IMG/VR virus record: IMGVR_UViG_3300002040_004264
Coordinates: 1-25,976 of that record
Length of the DNA stretch: 25,976 nt
Strand: one strand, 5' to 3'
Source of the DNA: a virus
In this document: positions 1 through 25,976 of the stretch, one piece after another
How positions within the stretch are numbered: position 1 is the first letter of the stretch
Layout: the number at the start of each line of letters is the position of its first letter
Program-made: the position numbers and the translations under genes
Notes under the pieces: generated by a model
What the model saw: the letters and a program-made list of their open reading frames with translations, nothing else
What the model was told of the DNA's origin: nothing
The model's database searches: none

Positions 1-513
1 ATGCGCAATAAGGTATTAGTAACAGGCCTGAGCTTATCAGCTGCTGCACTGATCGCCTTGGTTTCATCTGAGGGGTTTTCTCCAGTTGCCGAGATCCCCG
101 TTAAAGGTGATCGCCCTACACTAGGATTTGGTTCCACTTATCACGCAGATGGACGGCCAGTAAAGCTAGGCGAAACCACTACCCCAATTAACGCACTTAA
201 AACCGCAAAGGCTCATATCGATAAGGATGAGCAACGCTTTCGAGCAAGCCTGCCTAACGTGGAGCTTAACCAAGCATCTTACGATTTATACATCGATTGG
301 ACGTATCAATACGGAATTGGCCGCTGGTTAGCCTCTCCGATGCGTGGTCATCTTATCCAAGGTGAATACCAACAATCATGTGATGCATTGCTGTTGCCAG
401 AGTATCGCACCGTCGCTGGCTATGACTGCTCAACGCCTGGCAACAAGCGCTGCTATGGCGTGTGGCTTCGGGCGCAGCAGCGGCACCGCGACTGCCTCGA
501 TGCCCTCAATTGA
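1..513 (+). CDS. Phage endolysin, GH24 lysozyme with SAR-like N-terminus
   Basis: This is a muramidase that cuts peptidoglycan at the end of the lytic cycle (170 aa). An uncharged hydrophobic stretch at residues 5-21, rich in Gly/Ser/Ala/Thr, looks like a signal-anchor-release (SAR) helix. The catalytic-type Glu24 follows at once in SSEGF. The GDRPTLGFGST segment (residues 36-46) matches the T4/P21-type GH24 active-site block, with Asp37 and Thr40 as probable partners. Four cysteines in the C-terminal third fit the disulphide-rich end common in phage lysozymes. It is the first gene of the lysis cassette, followed by spanins and a holin. A SAR anchor would let it reach the periplasm through Sec and be released when the membrane depolarises. 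The family call is firm; the SAR mechanism is inferred from composition. The gene begins at the first base of the window, so its promoter and RBS are not visible. Confidence 0.93.
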   Translation: MRNKVLVTGLSLSAAALIALVSSEGFSPVAEIPVKGDRPTLGFGSTYHADGRPVKLGETTTPINALKTAKAHIDKDEQRFRASLPNVELNQASYDLYIDWTYQYGIGRWLASPMRGHLIQGEYQQSCDALLLPEYRTVAGYDCSTPGNKRCYGVWLRAQQRHRDCLDALN

Positions 514-2788: not shown

Positions 2789-4484
2789 TATAGAAGATCG
2801 CGTCACTCGTTGGGCAAAAGAAGTCGTCTCTGGGGAGTTCCTCGCCGGCCCCGATATCCGCAACGCCTGTAAGCGGCACTTAAAAGACTTAGAGTCTTGC
2901 CACGCAACAGGTCTTACTTGGGATTTAGCCGCCGCCAACCGCGCCATTAGCTTTTTCCCAAAAGTATTGCGCTTAAGTGGTGGTGATCACGAAGGCAAGC
3001 CATTCAATCTGCTCGACTGGCAAGCATTTATCGTCGGCTCGCTGTTTGGCTGGAAGGATGCCGACGGTACCCGCCGTTTTCGCATGTGTTATGTCGAAAG
3101 TGGCAAAGGCTCTGGTAAATCCCCGTTAGCCGCAGGTATCGGGCTTTACGGTTTAGTGGCCGATGGTGAGGCCTCCGCCGAAATTTATGCCGCGGCCACC
3201 AAAAAAGATCAGGCCATGGTGTTGTTCCGCGACGCGGTTTCCATGGTTAACCAATCGCCGCAGCTAAGTTCAAGATTAAAAAAATCGGGTACCGGGCAAA
3301 GCGTTTGGAACCTTGCCTATCTGGCTAAAAACTCATTTTTTAGACCCATCAGCTCCGACAACGGCCAATCAGGGCCGCGTCCCCACATGGCGCTGATTGA
3401 CGAAGTACACGAACACAAAAACAACAACGTCGTCGAGATGATGCGTGCGGGTACCAAAGGCCGCAAGCAAGCGTTGATCTTCATGATCACCAACTCAGGC
3501 CACGACCGCACCAGCGTTTGTTACTCGTACCACGAATACGGCAAAGCCATTTGTGCGGGTACCAAAGAAGATGATTCCTTCTTCGCCTTTATCTGTTCGC
3601 TCGATGAAGGTGACGACCCGATTAATGACGAAAGTTGCTGGCAAAAAGCCAACCCATCACTGGGGCACACCTTCACGCATAAATACCTGCGTGAACAGGT
3701 CACCCAAGCCAAGGGCATGCCAGCCAAAGAGAGCATTGTTCGGCGCTTAAACTTCTGCCAATGGGTAGATAGTGCCTCGCCTTGGCTATCCGCCGACACA
3801 TGGATGGATTGCGAAGATGATTTTGATATCAGCGAGCTCTACGGCGAAGAATGCTACGGCGGGCTCGACTTATCCGGTACCCGCGACTTAACCGCCTTAG
3901 CGCTGTACTTCCCGCGAGTCAAAACGCTGTTAGTCGATTTTTGGACACCAAAAGACACGTTACTGGATCGCGAACGCACCGATAACGTGCCTTACTCGGC
4001 ATGGCTCAGGCAAGGTTTTATCCATGCGCCACCCGGGCATGCAGTGGACTACAGCTTTGTGGCCGAGCGAGTCGCCGAGCTGTCCGCACTGTTTGAGATA
4101 AAAAGTATCGGCTTCGACCAATACCGGATCCACTACCTTGAGCCAGAACTCGCCGAGGCAAACGTATTTATCCCGCTAGTTAAACACGGGCAAGGTTACT
4201 ACAAAGCATCAGAGTCAAACCTCTGGATGCCGCGCTCAATTGAACTGTTTGAAAAGCTGATCACCAGCAAAGAGATCAGAATCAAAACCAACCCATGCCT
4301 AAGGTGGAACGCCGCAAGCGCAGTGCTTGAGGCCGACGCCAAAGACAACCGTATTTTTACCAAGAAAAAATCCACAGGTCGTATCGACGGCGTAGTCGCC
4401 GCCGCTATGGCAGTGGGAACGGCTGACCCAGTAAGTGATGCTCAGTCAACTTCAGTTTACGAGACTTCGGACGTTCTATGTTGA
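2745..4484 (+). CDS. Terminase large subunit, HK97-type ATPase-nuclease
   Basis: This 579-residue motor protein pumps DNA into the prohead and cuts concatemers. The Walker A motif is ESGKGSGKS (residues 118-126, with Lys125). Walker B is MALIDEVHEH (about 215-224, Asp219/Glu220). The segment MITNSG shortly after fits motif III (coupling). The C-terminal RNase H-like nuclease begins near 370 with GGLDLSGTRDLTAL (first catalytic Asp), has a middle Asp in IGFDQYRI and ends with RIDGVVAAAMA (last Asp). All expected parts are present and length is typical. It overlaps the small subunit upstream and a small membrane ORF downstream. Confidence 0.97.
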   Translation: MATRKKTSSTSSSADIEDRVTRWAKEVVSGEFLAGPDIRNACKRHLKDLESCHATGLTWDLAAANRAISFFPKVLRLSGGDHEGKPFNLLDWQAFIVGSLFGWKDADGTRRFRMCYVESGKGSGKSPLAAGIGLYGLVADGEASAEIYAAATKKDQAMVLFRDAVSMVNQSPQLSSRLKKSGTGQSVWNLAYLAKNSFFRPISSDNGQSGPRPHMALIDEVHEHKNNNVVEMMRAGTKGRKQALIFMITNSGHDRTSVCYSYHEYGKAICAGTKEDDSFFAFICSLDEGDDPINDESCWQKANPSLGHTFTHKYLREQVTQAKGMPAKESIVRRLNFCQWVDSASPWLSADTWMDCEDDFDISELYGEECYGGLDLSGTRDLTALALYFPRVKTLLVDFWTPKDTLLDRERTDNVPYSAWLRQGFIHAPPGHAVDYSFVAERVAELSALFEIKSIGFDQYRIHYLEPELAEANVFIPLVKHGQGYYKASESNLWMPRSIELFEKLITSKEIRIKTNPCLRWNAASAVLEADAKDNRIFTKKKSTGRIDGVVAAAMAVGTADPVSDAQSTSVYETSDVLC

Positions 4485-14967: not shown

Positions 14968-17097
14968 ATGGCATTTGAAACGATTAATCTAGGCACCCAG
15001 CCAGCAGGCACGGGTGGCGATACGGCTCGCTCAGCATTTGAAAAAACCAACCGCAACTTTTTAGCTGTAGATGTACTCTCCGCAGCCATGTCACAAGCGC
15101 AGTTTGAAGCGATACGTTCACAAAACAAAGAACGCTATGCCGCGAGTGGATGGGTCAGCTTTGGTAATCATGAATCAGGCAAGCAAGTTAACGAATGCAA
15201 GCCCGGGCTTTATACCGCGCTTACTACACCAAACACCTTGCTTATTGGTAAAGCTGGCGGGGTTGGTGGCTCTAAAACCGATAATGCATCGGTACATATT
15301 GATGGAGTGGTTTTCAACTTAACCAATCAATTTGTGCTAACTCTGCCATCACATCCTACATCTACACAGCCAGAACGTATGGATATGTATGGTGTTGAGT
15401 CAGAAAAAGTTGAGATAAGCGCAGCATCGCCCAATGCTTATCAAGGCGGGTTGCGTGGTGTTGGTGCCGCAGTAAACCTATTTACCGCTACAGATCAGCA
15501 GAAAAAAGACTTCTTCTCGGCCAATGCCAATACCACCTATATAGGTACTGATGGCAAAATCTACCAGTGGCAGTTATATAAAATCTCGTTTGCAGGCACG
15601 ACTGATGGTGTGCCATCACCTTCAGAACAGGGATATTCACTGAATGCTTTTGGCGATCTATGGCTTAAAGAAGGTAAAAACCTGCTCTATTTTGGCAATG
15701 TGCTCCGTTTAAATGATGGCGGATATCATCCATCATTCAACCCGCTAGGTGCCGCAAAATTTGTTGGCGATACTTTTTGGTACAACACCGCTGCTAGCAT
15801 CACATCAAGAGCAGATTGTTTTTACCCTGCAAATTTGCTTGCTGGTTCAGGTTCCATAGCCAGCGGAAAATCTGGACGTCCTGAAATCGGTGGGCGTTAT
15901 TACGATGCTATTTATGCTAGTGGTTTTGGCGGAGTTTGCCGAGATATGCGCTATCCAGCATACGGGATAACTTCTGAGGATTCCGATGAAGCAGATCAGC
16001 GAGTAAAAAATGGTGCTTATAGGGGGTTTGAAAAACTTGTATTTAGTAAAGTAACCAAAGCTACGGCACCTAGTTCTTCCTCCCAATCACAAGATATATT
16101 TGTTGCTAATGCTTCTGAATGGACAGGGGGGGATAGAATTTCGCTATATGATGGTGAAACAGGAACATTGATTTTTGACAAACAGATTGTAACAGCAGTT
16201 GGTGATTCATTTGTTTATTGCCAAAATGCCCCACAGTACAACCGTGTCGCTGGTAGAGATTACTATTCTGTGCAAGAGAAGTATACTAATGTATCCGTGG
16301 GTGGTTCATTCTTGCAAACTGATGTAGTTGGTAACCCTGATACTATCTTAGTAACTCAAGCATTAGTTAATGGTTGGCACGGTAGTTGGATTCCTTTGAT
16401 TCCTGCCGCTACCGGCATTATATCTGAAGAACTTATTCGCAAAAACCTAGGTTCAATTAATGTTGATACTACATATTCTTTGGATTTTGGATCTTCTTTT
16501 GAAAAAACAACCAGCGATTTCTCAATAGTAGATAACAGCGTTGTTATTGGACAGAACTCTAACCTAGTTAGTCTATTACAATATACCGCATTTGCTAAAC
16601 AAACTGAAAACGCTGTAAATGCATCAGTTTATGGTGGTATAGGTGGTTTGCATGATATGGCAGAATACGGTGGGTATTTTGCGTCAATTTGGGGTGGTAT
16701 TTTTTTTGAAAGTTTGCTGAATAAAGTTGCTATTAGCGATGCAGGCGGAGGCGGAGTTAGTCATTTAAATCTGACAATAAAACTCATTAGACCAGATACA
16801 TTCACAATGAACCCTTACTCTGATCAGACTTGTTACCATACTGCAATAAGCAAACCCAGCCCAACTAATGGAAGCAGTGGAATTAAGGCGTTAGGTTACA
16901 ACGTCAATATCAGCCAACAAGCATTTATCCAGTACGCTTATACCGAGCTAAAACATAATGGCGCCAACTGGGGTGATGATGGCAAAGTGACAATTGTCGA
17001 TAACCAATCCACAAAAACAGACCTTAACGGAAACTCTGTTTTAGTGGGCACGGCCAAGTTGCGTGAGCCCATCGGTTGGATCAAAAACAAGGTTTAA
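14968..17097 (+). CDS. Fibre-like structural protein inserted in tip operon
   Basis: This 709-residue protein has N-terminus FETINLGTQPAGTGGDTARSAFEKTNRNFLAVD. That matches the INxG-x-x-P-x-x-GTGD-x-x-R-x-AF-x-K-x-N-x-NF module often found at the base of phage fibres and baseplate proteins. The rest is glycine-, Ser/Thr- and aromatic-rich, predicted beta (for example WLKEGKNLLYFGNVLRLNDGGYHPSFNP near 231-258 and GGRYYDAIYASGFGG near 308-322). The end contains NISQQAFIQYAYTELKHNG and KLREPIGWIKNKV. I do not recognise the central part. The DNA from about 16000 to 16850 looks more AT-rich than its surroundings, as expected for an exchanged receptor-binding gene. It has its own AGGA-type RBS. Lambda has no gene here between M and L. 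Likely role: host recognition fibre or side structure. Confidence 0.7.
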   Translation: MAFETINLGTQPAGTGGDTARSAFEKTNRNFLAVDVLSAAMSQAQFEAIRSQNKERYAASGWVSFGNHESGKQVNECKPGLYTALTTPNTLLIGKAGGVGGSKTDNASVHIDGVVFNLTNQFVLTLPSHPTSTQPERMDMYGVESEKVEISAASPNAYQGGLRGVGAAVNLFTATDQQKKDFFSANANTTYIGTDGKIYQWQLYKISFAGTTDGVPSPSEQGYSLNAFGDLWLKEGKNLLYFGNVLRLNDGGYHPSFNPLGAAKFVGDTFWYNTAASITSRADCFYPANLLAGSGSIASGKSGRPEIGGRYYDAIYASGFGGVCRDMRYPAYGITSEDSDEADQRVKNGAYRGFEKLVFSKVTKATAPSSSSQSQDIFVANASEWTGGDRISLYDGETGTLIFDKQIVTAVGDSFVYCQNAPQYNRVAGRDYYSVQEKYTNVSVGGSFLQTDVVGNPDTILVTQALVNGWHGSWIPLIPAATGIISEELIRKNLGSINVDTTYSLDFGSSFEKTTSDFSIVDNSVVIGQNSNLVSLLQYTAFAKQTENAVNASVYGGIGGLHDMAEYGGYFASIWGGIFFESLLNKVAISDAGGGGVSHLNLTIKLIRPDTFTMNPYSDQTCYHTAISKPSPTNGSSGIKALGYNVNISQQAFIQYAYTELKHNGANWGDDGKVTIVDNQSTKTDLNGNSVLVGTAKLREPIGWIKNKV

Positions 17098-20034: not shown

Positions 20035-23000
20035 ATGGGTATTCCAGCATTAAATCAACAACTCGTTATCCATGGCGCTAAAGCAGGCGAAAGCGAGCAG
20101 CGTACTCCGGTTGAATCGCCAGATGATCTGCGCTCCATAGCAAAAGCTAAGATTTTACTGGCTATCGGTGAAGGTGAATTTGAGGGCCAATTATCCGGCC
20201 AAAATGTGTTTTTAGATGGCACACCTCTGCTCGATGCCAACGGTGCTGAAAACTTCCCAGGTGTTATTTGGGACTTTCGTCCGGGATCTGTGCATCAAAC
20301 TTATATTCCGGGCTTGCCATCGGTTGAAAACGAGGTCGCATTAGGGATTGAGTTAAAGTCTGAGCAGCCTTACACCCGCGCCATTACAAACTCACTACTC
20401 TCTGCTGTTCGTGTTCGCTTTCGCTGGCCTGCGTTGCAACAGCAGCTTGATAACGGTGATGTAAATGGCTATCGCATTGCATACGCCATTGATCTCTCTA
20501 CTGATGGCGGTAGCTATCAAACGGTATTAAGCACTGCTGTAGATGGTAAAACTACCCAGCCCTATGAGCGCAGCCACCGTATTGATTTACCTGCAGGCAA
20601 TAGCTGGCAGATACGCATTCGCCGCTTAACACCAAACCAAAACAACAACCGCGTCGCCGACTTAATGCAAATTGCGGCGATTACCGATGTGATCGACAGA
20701 AAGCTCAAATACCCAAACACGGCATTGCTATACGTGGAATTTGACGCTAGCCAATTCCAGAATATTCCCGTGGTATCGTGCGAACCCTTTATGCGAAAAG
20801 TAAAGGTGCCAACTAACTACAATCCGCTTACCCGCGAATATACAGGCGTGTGGGACGGTAGCTTTAAAATCGCATGGACCGATAATCCTGCATGGGTGAG
20901 TTACGACATTATCCTCGACGACCGCTTTGGCACAGGCCGCAGGATCAATGCGTCGCTGGTGGATAAGTGGGAGCTTTACCAGATTGCCCAATATTGCGAT
21001 CAACTGGTACCAAACGGCAAAGGCGGCATGGAGCCTCGCTATATCTGCAATATCTACATTCAGCAAGCGGCTGAAGCATGGCAAGTGCTGCGTGATTTAG
21101 CGTCTATTTACCGTGGCATGACGTACTGGTCAAACGGCCAAATGTACTCAGTGGCAGACATGCCTCGCGATATGGATTTTATTTACACCAATGCCAACGT
21201 GATCGACGGAAAATTTAGCTATTCATCCAGTAGCGAAAAGGTGAAATACACTCGCGCGTTAATTAGCTGGGATAACCCTGATAACGCCTATGAATCCGAT
21301 GTTACCTCGGTATCAGATCAAGCCTTGCAGCGCCGTTATGGCGACAACGTAGTCGAATTATCCGCCTTAGGTTGCACCCGTGAATCAGAGGCGCAGCGCC
21401 GCGGTAAATGGGCTATTTATACCAATAACAATGACCGCGCGGTTAATTTTAAAGTGGGCATGGATGGCAGTATTCCATTACCTGGTTATGTTATTGGAGT
21501 TGCAGATCAACTTATAGCAGGTAGCCGCATTGGTGGGCGTATCTCGGCGGTTAATGGCAAACAAATCACCTTGGATCGCGCTGCCACTATTGCTGTTAAC
21601 GACCGCTTGATTATTAACTTGCCAAGCGGTAAGGCTCAGGCGCGTACCATTGAGGCCGTTAATGGCCGAGTGGTAACGGTAACCACCGAATACAGCGAAA
21701 TGCCATTGCCACAGTTGTTATGGTCGGTTGAGTCAGATGAACTAAAGCTACAGCAATTTAGAGTACTGCGTGTCGCCAAAGCCAATAGCGACAGCATTGA
21801 GTACGAGATCACCGCAGTTGAGCATAACCCAAGTAAATACCCCTATATCGACACAGGCGCACGACTAGAAGATCGGCCAATTAGTAAATTGCCCGTTGGG
21901 GCGCAAGAAGCACCGGCTACTGTGACCATCAGCCAGTCAACATTTACTGAGCAAACGCTGTCAGTCACGACTATGACAATTCAGTGGGCCACGGCTAAAA
22001 ATGCAGTGGCTTACGAGGTTGAATGGCGTAAAGACTCAGGCGAGTGGGTTAAGTTACCGAAAACCAGCGGTACCTCGGTTGATATCCGCGGCGTTTACAC
22101 CGGGCAATATATTGCTCGAGTTCGCGCAATCAACTCTGTTGATGTGTCGTCAGTGCCAAAATTATCCGACCTAACCAATATCACGGGTAAAACCGGAATA
22201 CCGCCAGCGGTGGCCTCGTTCACCACTACACAGCTAGTGTTTGGCATTGCGTTAAATTGGTTATTCCCTGCTGGTGCAGAGGACACTCTACGCACCGAAA
22301 TTGAGTACGGCCCCAATAATAACGACAGCGGTATGATCAAGTTAGGTGATTTTGCCTACCCCATAAACAGCCACACCATGACAGGCCTGAGAGCAGGGGT
22401 GAGTTTTTGGTTTAGAGCGCGGTTAGTTGACCGCACTGGCAACGTGGGCCCATGGTCTAACTTTGTAAACGGTCAAAGCTCAATCGACCAAACCAAATAT
22501 GATGAGTACTTCAGCGAGCGCATTACATCATCAGCACTCGGGCAAGAATTGCTATCAGAGATTGAGCTGATCCCTGTTATTAAAGTCGAAACTGATAAAA
22601 TCCCTGATATTGAAGTCAGCATTACTGAAGCCGAAAACAAAATTCAGCAGATGCAGGCCGAGATCGCCGATATTGCAGGCGCACCAGATTGGGATAACAC
22701 AGTAAGCTATCTCACTGGGCAGTTGGTTAAATATCAAGGAAAGCTCTACTCAGCTAAACAAACCGTACCCGCAGGAACACTGCCAACCAACACCACCTAT
22801 TGGACAAAAATTGGTGAATATTCATCCTTGGGTGAGGCTGTATCTGCATTAACTGTACGTGTAGATAATGTTGAGACCTCGATAGAAACTATCGATGGCA
22901 AACTGACTGCAGAATCATCACGAATTGATGGCATATTTGCCCAAGTTAACCCGCCATTAGCGGGGGATACTGGTTGGAATGCGGGTACCACAGTAGTATT

Positions 23001-24399
23001 TGCTGGCGTGTGGTCTGAGCAATATGCAAGGGCTGCAGCTGATGAAGCATTGGCAAAAAGTATTGATGCCGTTTCAGCGAGCATCGATAAAAACACTGCA
23101 GCCATCATCACAGAGCAAATGGCTAGAGCGACTGCAGATGAATCACTGGCAAACCAAATCATCAGTATTTCAGCAACAGTAAACGGCAACGCTGCGCTTA
23201 TTAAACAAGAGCAAACCGCTCGTGCAGATGCAGATAGCGCTTTAGCTACGCAAATTACCACTGTTCAAGCTGCCGCCGATACTGCCAATACCAAGGCAAC
23301 CCAAAACGCAGCAGCAATTCAAACTGAGCAAACAGCTAGAGCTAATGCTGACAGTGCTTTAGCAACACAAATCACTACTGTGCAGGCTACAGCCGATGCT
23401 GCTAACACCAAGGCAACCCAGAACGCTGCGGCAATTCAGACTGAGCAGACAGCACGCGCCAACGCTGATAGCGCATTAGCATCTCAAATCACCACTGTGC
23501 AGGCCTCTGCTACCTCAGCAAATACGGCAGCATCTACGGCGCAAACTGCCGCAGATCAAGCCAAGGCCGATGCTGCAGCTGCCGCTGGCATCGCCAATGG
23601 CAAGGGCAAGGTGATTATTCAATCTTCTGCCCCAGCGACAGCGGACCGTCTAGCGCAAAACCTATGGATTGATACGACAAACAACGCCAATACACCTAAG
23701 CGTTGGAACGGCTCAGCATGGTCTACAGTGACTGATAAAGCGGCCACGGATGCCGCTAACGCCGCCGCAGCCGCACAAGCCGCTGCCGATGCTGCTAACA
23801 CCAAGGCAACCCAAAACGCTGCGGCAATTCAGACTGAGCAGACAGCACGCGCCAACGCTGATAGCGCATTAGCATCTCAAATCACTACTGTGCAGGCTAC
23901 AGCTAACAATGCATCAGCCGCGGTGCAGCAAACATCGACTGCATTAGCTGATTTAGATGGCAAGCTGCAAGCAATGTACTCGATTAAGGTTGGTGTCACG
24001 GCAGACGGTAAATACTACGGCGCAGGCATGGCGATCGGTATTGAGAACACTCCATCTGGCATGCAATCGCAAGTGTTATTTACTGCAGATAGATTTGCAA
24101 TTGTGAATCAAATCACTGGTGCAACAACTATCACTACGCCTTTCACTGTCCAAGGTGGTCAGGTATTTATTAACAGCGCGGTTATTGGTGATGGCACAAT
24201 CACCAACGCTAAGATCGGCAGCTATATCCAATCAACAAACTATGTTGCACAAACCACTGGCTGGAAACTAGATAAATCCGGTGTATTTGAAATTAATGGA
24301 AACACTGCAGGCGAGGGGCGAATGCAAATATCAAATAATCGTATTGATGTTTATGATACCGCAGGAAATCTAGTAAGCAGAATGGGTAAATTGACATGA
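20035..24399 (+). CDS. Host specificity tail tip protein J-like
   Basis: This 1454-residue central tip protein forms the trimeric tip and binds the receptor. The J core (1-620) includes EGPIEGLS-like LLAIGEGEFEGQLSGQNVFLDGTPL and DIILDDRFGTGRRI. Two fibronectin III-like domains lie near 627-712 and 722-817. Residues about 883-934 resemble a small CBM5/12-type sugar-binding module (WDNTVSYLTGQLVKYQGKLY ... TTYWTKIG). Then come coiled-coil repeats of 39 residues (roughly 1030-1185 and 1245-1300). They flank a small domain near 1191-1240 with QNLWIDTTNNANTPKRWNG. The C-terminus (about 1305-1454) contains a DUF1983-like part (IKVGVTADGKYYGAGMAIGI, VLFTADRFAIVN) and a tip domain. The stop overlaps the next gene as ATGA. 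The receptor is unknown. Confidence 0.94.
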   Translation: MGIPALNQQLVIHGAKAGESEQRTPVESPDDLRSIAKAKILLAIGEGEFEGQLSGQNVFLDGTPLLDANGAENFPGVIWDFRPGSVHQTYIPGLPSVENEVALGIELKSEQPYTRAITNSLLSAVRVRFRWPALQQQLDNGDVNGYRIAYAIDLSTDGGSYQTVLSTAVDGKTTQPYERSHRIDLPAGNSWQIRIRRLTPNQNNNRVADLMQIAAITDVIDRKLKYPNTALLYVEFDASQFQNIPVVSCEPFMRKVKVPTNYNPLTREYTGVWDGSFKIAWTDNPAWVSYDIILDDRFGTGRRINASLVDKWELYQIAQYCDQLVPNGKGGMEPRYICNIYIQQAAEAWQVLRDLASIYRGMTYWSNGQMYSVADMPRDMDFIYTNANVIDGKFSYSSSSEKVKYTRALISWDNPDNAYESDVTSVSDQALQRRYGDNVVELSALGCTRESEAQRRGKWAIYTNNNDRAVNFKVGMDGSIPLPGYVIGVADQLIAGSRIGGRISAVNGKQITLDRAATIAVNDRLIINLPSGKAQARTIEAVNGRVVTVTTEYSEMPLPQLLWSVESDELKLQQFRVLRVAKANSDSIEYEITAVEHNPSKYPYIDTGARLEDRPISKLPVGAQEAPATVTISQSTFTEQTLSVTTMTIQWATAKNAVAYEVEWRKDSGEWVKLPKTSGTSVDIRGVYTGQYIARVRAINSVDVSSVPKLSDLTNITGKTGIPPAVASFTTTQLVFGIALNWLFPAGAEDTLRTEIEYGPNNNDSGMIKLGDFAYPINSHTMTGLRAGVSFWFRARLVDRTGNVGPWSNFVNGQSSIDQTKYDEYFSERITSSALGQELLSEIELIPVIKVETDKIPDIEVSITEAENKIQQMQAEIADIAGAPDWDNTVSYLTGQLVKYQGKLYSAKQTVPAGTLPTNTTYWTKIGEYSSLGEAVSALTVRVDNVETSIETIDGKLTAESSRIDGIFAQVNPPLAGDTGWNAGTTVVFAGVWSEQYARAAADEALAKSIDAVSASIDKNTAAIITEQMARATADESLANQIISISATVNGNAALIKQEQTARADADSALATQITTVQAAADTANTKATQNAAAIQTEQTARANADSALATQITTVQATADAANTKATQNAAAIQTEQTARANADSALASQITTVQASATSANTAASTAQTAADQAKADAAAAAGIANGKGKVIIQSSAPATADRLAQNLWIDTTNNANTPKRWNGSAWSTVTDKAATDAANAAAAAQAAADAANTKATQNAAAIQTEQTARANADSALASQITTVQATANNASAAVQQTSTALADLDGKLQAMYSIKVGVTADGKYYGAGMAIGIENTPSGMQSQVLFTADRFAIVNQITGATTITTPFTVQGGQVFINSAVIGDGTITNAKIGSYIQSTNYVAQTTGWKLDKSGVFEINGNTAGEGRMQISNNRIDVYDTAGNLVSRMGKLT
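23392..23897 (+). repeat. 113-bp direct repeats and 117-bp period inside J
   Basis: Bases 23392-23504 and 23785-23897 are identical except at two positions. The offset is 393 bases, so recombination between them would delete 131 residues in frame. A more diverged copy lies one period (117 bases, 39 residues) upstream of the first. The encoded unit contains AAIQTEQTARANADSALA and TQITTVQATADAANTKATQN and forms coiled coil. Confidence 0.9.
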
Positions 24400-24719
24400 G
24401 TTATGGATTAGCTGTTTATAACAGCGGTAAAGAGGTCCTTTACAGTGCTACACCATATAATTTGTTTTGGTGTTTACGTGTAAAAGACCTATACCCAGGC
24501 GTTCATTCTGTCACGCTACCATCAAATGGTGTCGGTGGTAAGCTCTCATTCGTTTGGGGTTTAGAACGCAGCACGCCGGATCAAGAGGTTTCCTTAGGCA
24601 GTACTTTTAGAGTCAAAATAAACAGTCTCACGATCTCAGGCAATACAGTCACATTTGAACTAGAGCAAGATGCCTTTGGTGTAACCGCTATCTTGCTTTC
24701 ATTTTTTTATTCACGGTGA
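24396..24719 (+). CDS. Post-J tail accessory protein, one-module
   Basis: This 107-residue, beta-rich protein is translationally coupled to J (ATGA overlap). It opens SYGLAVYNSGKEVLYSATP. This motif recurs twice in the next gene and resembles the YGLRV-x-N-x-x-G-x-V-x-F-D-S opening of small phage proteins found after J, which I recall as the DUF6453 group. The rest (HSVTLPSNGVGGKLSFVWGL, FRVKINSLTISGNTVTFEL) fits a small beta sandwich. It has no signal peptide. By position it may be a minor virion component at the tail tip or a J chaperone. The family name is from memory and uncertain. Confidence 0.7.
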   Translation: MSYGLAVYNSGKEVLYSATPYNLFWCLRVKDLYPGVHSVTLPSNGVGGKLSFVWGLERSTPDQEVSLGSTFRVKINSLTISGNTVTFELEQDAFGVTAILLSFFYSR

Positions 24720-24722
24720 TTT

Positions 24723-25433
24723 ATGTACGGCGTTGAAATTCGCAACAAGGACCTTTCGTTATTTTTAGGTACCTATGAAACCACCTTTATGTATTGGGGA
24801 TACAAGGACGTAACCCACACTAATGGGACTGATACCTATATCGATCTGTTTGGTATTCCGGTTGGTTACGATATTCAGATTTATACCTACTGCAACACCC
24901 AGGGAGAGCAATACCCATATTTAAGAGCATTGCATGTGATCCTAGATGGAACAGGTAGCACATGGAGAGGCTTAGTTAGTTCTTGGATGTATTCCGGTAC
25001 CGCGAGGATTTATGTGTTTGCTTCAGCTAAAGCAATAAATTTGCCTAAGTATGGCTTAGCCATTTATGACACAGCGGGACATGTGCGCTTTCACAGCGCT
25101 AGGCCTCCGGTATCAATAAAACTGCTTGGCGAAGTGATTTATTCACAAGGCCAGCACAGAACTAACTGCAGCTTTAAGCCAGCATGCAAGCCAACCATTG
25201 CCCGAGTCGATTCTGAATACGCGGGAACGCCAGGGCAATACTATGTTGAGTACTCACGATTTAATGGGTTTTACAACAGTAGTGATGGCGGCTATCAGCA
25301 CGGATGGACTCTGCAAACGCAAGGGCCGCGCGGTGGCCCTTCTCGATATCAACCTGCAGATGTAATGAATTACGCTGTTATTGATGCTTCTTACTATGAG
25401 CAGTTCCCAAACTTGGGCAACTTTCCACAGTAG
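24723..25433 (+). CDS. Post-J tail accessory protein, two-module
   Basis: This 236-residue protein starts 3 bases after the previous stop. It appears to hold two copies of the module in the preceding protein. The first starts MYGVEIRNKDLSLFLGTYET (1-20), the second KYGLAIYDTAGHVRFHSARP (109-128). Both are followed by Tyr- and Gly-rich beta sequence. The C-terminal part (about 170-236) is rich in Tyr, Gly and Ser (YVEYSRFNGFYNSSDGGYQH), as seen in exposed adhesin-like or fibre-tip surfaces. It shares no recognisable enzyme motif. A role at the tail tip or in receptor contact is inferred from position and composition. The gene ends exactly where the opposing lipoprotein gene ends. Confidence 0.7.
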   Translation: MYGVEIRNKDLSLFLGTYETTFMYWGYKDVTHTNGTDTYIDLFGIPVGYDIQIYTYCNTQGEQYPYLRALHVILDGTGSTWRGLVSSWMYSGTARIYVFASAKAINLPKYGLAIYDTAGHVRFHSARPPVSIKLLGEVIYSQGQHRTNCSFKPACKPTIARVDSEYAGTPGQYYVEYSRFNGFYNSSDGGYQHGWTLQTQGPRGGPSRYQPADVMNYAVIDASYYEQFPNLGNFPQ

Positions 25434-25976
25434 TTATTTGCTGATAACGCTCAACTCAGAAATGGGGGTATTGGGTGGATTATTGTAAATCGTCGCCAGA
25501 GCACTATCAGCCAATGTGCTCTGAGCTTTGAGCACTCGATAAGAGTCTTTATCAGTTCGATTTAAGCCAAAAATCTTATAAGCCACCAAATCAAAAGTGA
25601 CATTAGGGCAGGATGCCATATCACCAACTTCAATGGTGTATTGCCAATTACCTAGAGGGATTGAAGTAAGGCAACCCACATTTGATGATTTAATCGTAAT
25701 GTCCGCTGGCTCTGTGCCATTTGAATATCGAATTATCTGATAACCGGCCACTTGCTCGATACGCTCTAATGACAACAAGATTTTGTCGATATCTTCAGAG
25801 TGAGACTCAACAGCGATCACCAGTGGTAAATCTGCATCACTTGGTCTAACCGTTTTCCCGTCAACCGCATTCGTGCTAGAGATCAAATTTTTGATATCTC
25901 CACCGACGTCATCATCACCGCCACCACCGCATCCTGCGAGTGAAACCATTAAAGCCATCAGCGCTAAACGTTTCAT
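25434..25976 (-). CDS. Unknown lipoprotein on opposite strand, possible moron
   Basis: This 180-residue protein is encoded on the minus strand. The N-terminus is a lipoprotein signal: MKR, a hydrophobic core, lipobox LAGC with Cys16, then GGGG and DDD. Gly at +2 fits outer-membrane sorting. The mature domain has a strand-helix-strand-strand order (LPLVIAV 50-56, EDIDKILLSLERIEQVAG 61-78, YQIIRYS 79-85, ADITIKS 91-97). Cys102 and Cys123 could form a disulphide. A helix with VAYKIFGLNR near 131-140 follows. I do not recognise it. It is the only leftward gene, converging on the tail operon with no gap, so it is transcribed independently and could be expressed in a lysogen. A surface lipoprotein next to tip genes could block superinfection, but a host gene flanking a prophage is also possible. 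The start lies at the last base of the window, so its promoter is not visible. Confidence 0.72.
   Translation of the reverse strand: MKRLALMALMVSLAGCGGGGDDDVGGDIKNLISSTNAVDGKTVRPSDADLPLVIAVESHSEDIDKILLSLERIEQVAGYQIIRYSNGTEPADITIKSSNVGCLTSIPLGNWQYTIEVGDMASCPNVTFDLVAYKIFGLNRTDKDSYRVLKAQSTLADSALATIYNNPPNTPISELSVISK

Follow-up and report, generated by a model that had tools for sequence, protein, structure and literature searches.

A candidate superinfection-exclusion lipoprotein in the Cor position of LambdaSo-type Shewanella prophages

What is the role of the single gene that runs against the late operon at the end of LambdaSo-like Shewanella prophages? The window analysed here, an IMG/VR virus record of 25,976 bases taken at its full length, is the right half of such a prophage. 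Its lysis genes are followed by the terminase, head and tail genes, J, p107 and p236, and finally by the antisense gene lp180 (Table 1). A first-pass annotation had read lp180 as a candidate superinfection-exclusion lipoprotein, with T5 Llp as an example. This is the most likely reading also after our analysis, with Cor as the closer analogue and with phage ownership of the gene now shown directly.

Table 1. Position of lp180, of its predicted protein parts and of the neighbouring tail genes in the window
Feature	Position	Strand	Description
J, central tail fibre/host-specificity protein	20035..24399	+	PHROG 31, PHROG 2589; SO_2940 equivalent in MR-1
p107, first gene after J	24396..24719	+	distant homologue of phi80/N15 gp22; PHROG 557 E=1.9e-4
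p236	24723..25433	+	distant homologue of phi80/N15 gp23; PHROG 425 E=6.5e-10
lp180 (candidate superinfection-exclusion lipoprotein)	25434..25976	-	180-aa ORF, six orthologues, mean dN/dS 0.060, inside LambdaSo att sites in MR-1
lp180, signal peptide and lipobox	residues 1-16		
lp180, Gly/Asp-rich tether	residues ~17-27		
lp180, body	residues 28-180		

The open reading frame was recovered exactly where the annotation had placed its sole minus-strand gene. It comprises 180 codons, from the ATG at 25976-25974 to the TAA at 25436-25434; all other minus-strand frames in the window fall within longer plus-strand genes. The stop codon of p236 (25431-25433) directly touches that of lp180, so the two genes stand back to back, and lp180 directly follows J and the genes p107 and p236 of the receptor-binding module (PHROGs 557 and 425), in line with the earlier remark.

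The protein starts with MKRLALMALMVSLAGC followed by GGGGDDD, which contains a standard LAGC lipobox with glycine at position +2. Under the Lol rule, aspartate at +2 retains lipoproteins in the inner membrane. LAGC and the following glycine, which is compatible with the outer membrane, are present in all six orthologues, in agreement with the sorting proposed earlier; the localisation itself is predicted. These orthologues come from four IMG/VR proviruses, the window included, and two genomes, and share 91-99% amino-acid identity. Their dN/dS is 0.25 over codons 1-30 (signal and tether) and 0.044 after codon 30, and therefore purifying selection acts strongly on the body. The values for p236 (0.038) and p107 (0.044) are similar. 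Judged by its orthologues and dN/dS, lp180 is more than a chance reading frame. Cys102 and Cys123 are invariant across the six sequences and could form one disulphide.

The annotation had not recognised the family, and searches with lp180 gave no match in Pfam, PHROGs or PADLOC, and in NCBIfam only sub-threshold matches (the LptM signal-peptide model and PRK13435). A profile search of the PDB returned noise only (E 1.6), and tblastn against phage and plasmid collections found no match. AlphaFold2 gave no usable fold for the full length or the mature part (mean pLDDT 32). In the literature, we found no paper giving a phenotype or a locus tag for lp180 in Shewanella oneidensis MR-1.

All four IMG/VR records, that is the window and three related proviruses, stop exactly on the ATG of lp180. 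Such an end would be expected if lp180 were a host gene captured by the provirus boundary call, and the record was evidently trimmed at a gene boundary. This explanation is already refuted by the whole genomes. One of them is MR-1 itself: its J frame fits the published position of SO_2940, with 3,077,206 as coding base 3267 (PMC5148205), the LambdaSo att core stands at its published coordinates on the same contig, and 4 kb of IMG/VR record 637000258 are found there exactly. Split-read mapping of excised LambdaSo, an infectious prophage, placed the att sites at 3,074,594-3,074,605 and 3,126,435-3,126,446 (PMC8682789, Table 1), and each site contains the 12-bp core TCACTCATTAGT. In this genome lp180 occupies 3,074,870-3,075,412, 264 bp inside the prophage end. 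The mapped att sites enclose lp180, which therefore lies within the excising phage.

The order J-p107-p236-lp180 is the same in the window, the three other proviruses and the two genomes, MR-1 and G015. In MR-1 the prophage ends at rluB; in G015 the same end abuts fabH, so that lp180 is found at two different host loci. At the fabH site, a search with exact 14-base words found no att core. The other 128 of the 130 Shewanella genomes are without lp180, three of them (G088, G118 and G123) giving weak matches confined to N-terminal parts of the query, and no phage-free strain among the 130 was found to have lp180 at this locus. A profile search of 395 genomes from the order, a sample without a demonstrated positive, also returned none. 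The gene was thus found with the phage throughout the IMG/VR relatives and the genomes, as the annotation had suggested checking. lp180 belongs to the phage.

Two side observations concern these ends. In the IMG/VR record of LambdaSo from MR-1 (L023, IMGVR_UViG_637000258_000004), p107 is the last gene before the cut and p236 and lp180 are missing, although mapping places att about 1.5 kb beyond the end of the record. Moreover, the att core at MR-1 3074594-3074605 (L137:195-206) overlaps the start codon of rluB, so the region upstream of rluB is phage DNA in the lysogen, and rluB expression may be altered by lysogeny.

Does lp180 follow the phage as such, or a part of it? Four of the 130 Shewanella genomes have a J with at least 94% identity, and p236 is present in exactly the two that have lp180. 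The other two J-bearing genomes keep nearly the same J body with a different tip. In Shewanella sp. PS-2, where the prophage uses the rluB site as in MR-1, J has a C-terminal extension and no gene separates it from the att arm. In S. oncorhynchi (fabH site), a p368 module (PHROG 1265) is present without lp180. Therefore, lp180 tracks the receptor-binding module and neither J nor the insertion site. In coliphages, receptor-binding genes directly downstream of gpJ come with cognate exclusion proteins, and phages that use TolC have a J extension in place of the downstream receptor genes (PMC8594841). The swap of p107-p236-lp180 for an extended J in Shewanella parallels this picture.

Further variation was seen in the same region. 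J with an extended C-terminus and without p107, p236 and lp180 occurs in L087 (901-5469), L019, L021 and L022, apparently a natural exchange of the receptor-binding module within one phage lineage. Among close relatives (the window, L008, L024, L126 and L128), the length of J ranges from 1341 to 2067 aa, apparently because a repeat around 'TARADADSALATQITTVQA' varies in copy number, and in L009 the J frame is split in two. Within the minor-tail cluster of the window, a 709-aa gene without a Pfam match (14968-17097) is possibly a side fibre or spike.

The neighbours of lp180 connect it with a known locus. The gp22 proteins of phi80 and N15 match PHROG 557, and their gp23 proteins match PHROG 425 over the full length. 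Direct BLASTP of p107 and p236 against N15 gp22 and gp23 was weak, with an hhalign probability of 32%, and the tie therefore comes from the PHROG profiles. By these profiles, p236 is a probable receptor-binding tail-tip component. In N15 and phi80 the order is J-gp22-gp23-Cor, with p107 and p236 belonging to the gp22 and gp23 families. The same locus holds exclusion factors (PMC11990801).

We then asked how regularly a lipoprotein gene occupies this place. Of 80 IMG/VR viral contigs that encode a protein closely related to phi80 gp23, 79 have a lipobox ORF at most 1.5 kb downstream, a count that rests on closely related phages, versus 54 of 400 places chosen at random. The 79 ORFs all resemble Cor and lie on the plus strand. 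In seven of the annotated phages compared, namely ES18, PaulSarasin, BrunoManser, SECphi4, slyngel, JLBYU60 and BIFF, Cor is antisense and converges on gp23; phages of this kind include T1-like phages, Dhillonviruses and ES18. The window, where antisense lp180 converges on p236, has the same arrangement. Two enteric phages, AAS23 of Pantoea and Sweeny of Klebsiella, have gp22 and gp23 with no lipoprotein ORF in the Cor position. Thus, the link between gp22/gp23 and a lipoprotein is strong but not absolute. Separately, an unannotated Cor-like lipobox ORF was noted in Aeromonas phage pAEv1818 (L226:3740-4018), between the gp23 homologue and the next tail gene.

In sequence, lp180 stands apart from the known exclusion lipoproteins. 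It has no match to PHROG 1119, whereas N15 Cor (3e-32), phi80 Cor (7e-37) and T5 Llp (1e-19) do. Compared with Cor and Llp by pairwise alignment, profiles and our own 12-sequence HMM, it aligns in the signal peptide alone. As far as sequence tells, lp180 is not Cor by descent. What it shares with Cor (PHROG 1119; phi80, N15, ES18 and T1-like phages) is a lipobox, a place after J, PHROG 557 and PHROG 425, an antisense orientation in many phages, and two cysteines besides the lipidated one. At 180 aa it is about twice the size of the Cor and Llp precursors (72-90 aa), its host is Shewanella, and exclusion is its candidate function.

The proposed analogy with T5 Llp holds in part. Llp is likewise a lipoprotein whose gene adjoins a receptor-binding gene on the opposite strand; however, Llp is a 77-aa protein of a virulent phage, its gene diverges from the receptor-binding gene where lp180 converges, and it has no sequence match to lp180. 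Cor is the closer analogue by position, although neither matches in sequence. Lipoproteins that exclude phages, including Lpp021 and Lpp010 of mEpimmI, have been demonstrated by infection assays (PMC11893012). Like lp180, the mEpimmI Lpp proteins are lipobox proteins, of several sequence types, encoded inside the structural cluster of temperate siphoviruses. Their likeness to lp180 is one of lipobox and gene place, and exclusion, shown for Lpp in these assays, is only predicted for lp180.

Because the window ends on the ATG of lp180, its ribosome-binding site and promoter lie outside the window, and we read them in the two whole genomes. The DNA upstream of the start codon extends 264 bp to the prophage end in MR-1 and about 410 bp to fabH in G015. 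The two regions are alike only over about 9 bp before the ATG. Promoter scans of both found no consensus site above chance, and promoter and terminator scans at lp180 gave no more sites than in shuffled sequence.

We consider it fairly likely that the lipoprotein lp180, encoded by LambdaSo-type Shewanella prophages, acts in the outer membrane and there excludes superinfection. It would be unrelated in sequence to Cor, stand in the Cor position and block the phage's own outer-membrane receptor. The gene, which moves with the phage, would have a promoter of its own within the approximately 264-410 bp that separate its start codon from the end of the prophage, and would be transcribed in the lysogen, early in infection, or both. 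The product is predicted to carry its lipid on Cys16 and, with glycine at +2, to be sorted to the outer membrane. There, judging by position and analogy, it would bind the outer-membrane protein that the J/p107/p236 tip uses as its terminal receptor and make this receptor unusable; as for Llp on FhuA, binding would probably take place from the periplasmic side. The lysogen, or lysis debris, would then fail to adsorb related phages. A structure of Llp with FhuA is published (PMC9586334).

The strongest evidence for exclusion is synteny. The proposal has gained strength because the neighbours of lp180 are relatives of gp22 and gp23, the genes before Cor in N15 and phi80, and because Cor is antisense at this place elsewhere. 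With the place and orientation that the lock-out gene has in many E. coli phages and an unrelated sequence, lp180 is probably an unrecognised lock-out gene. It is possible, if somewhat doubtful, that the slot after J-gp22-gp23 is a general exchangeable site for sequence-unrelated exclusion lipoproteins across gammaproteobacterial siphoviruses, with lp180 as the first of an unrecognised larger family that blocks a Shewanella outer-membrane receptor.

Against exclusion it must be said that unrelated cargo, too, commonly sits beside attachment sites. Lambdoid phages often bear cargo genes there, and lp180 stands alone in its orientation as the final gene before att. Shewanella surface lipoproteins such as MtrC and OmcA also start with a Gly/Asp-rich tether after the lipid cysteine, as lp180 does. 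These features would suit a lysogenic-conversion lipoprotein, a moron of the lambda Bor/Lom kind in a cargo slot beside att, altering the envelope or biofilm and not serving exclusion. We regard this as rather unlikely, since lp180 tracks the p107-p236 module, not J or the insertion site, and its place fits Cor, including the orientation seen in many phages.

A part in the lytic cycle, for instance in lysis, with or without a spanin-type role, or at the membrane in support of the tail tip, is very improbable. Lipoproteins such as Rz1 do act in lysis and lp180 abuts tail genes, but the lysis cluster already holds an Rz1/LysC-like lipoprotein (Pfam PF23793, 1007-1294) and lp180 is antisense to the late operon. 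In addition, phages that have J without p107 and p236 are also without lp180.

lp180 is thus a candidate exclusion gene in LambdaSo of the model organism S. oneidensis MR-1, where it is open to test; prophage-cured strains of MR-1 exist (PMC7530303). If the proposal is true, the binding partner of lp180 would reveal the receptor of LambdaSo, and exclusion lipoproteins would be findable by position where sequence similarity fails.
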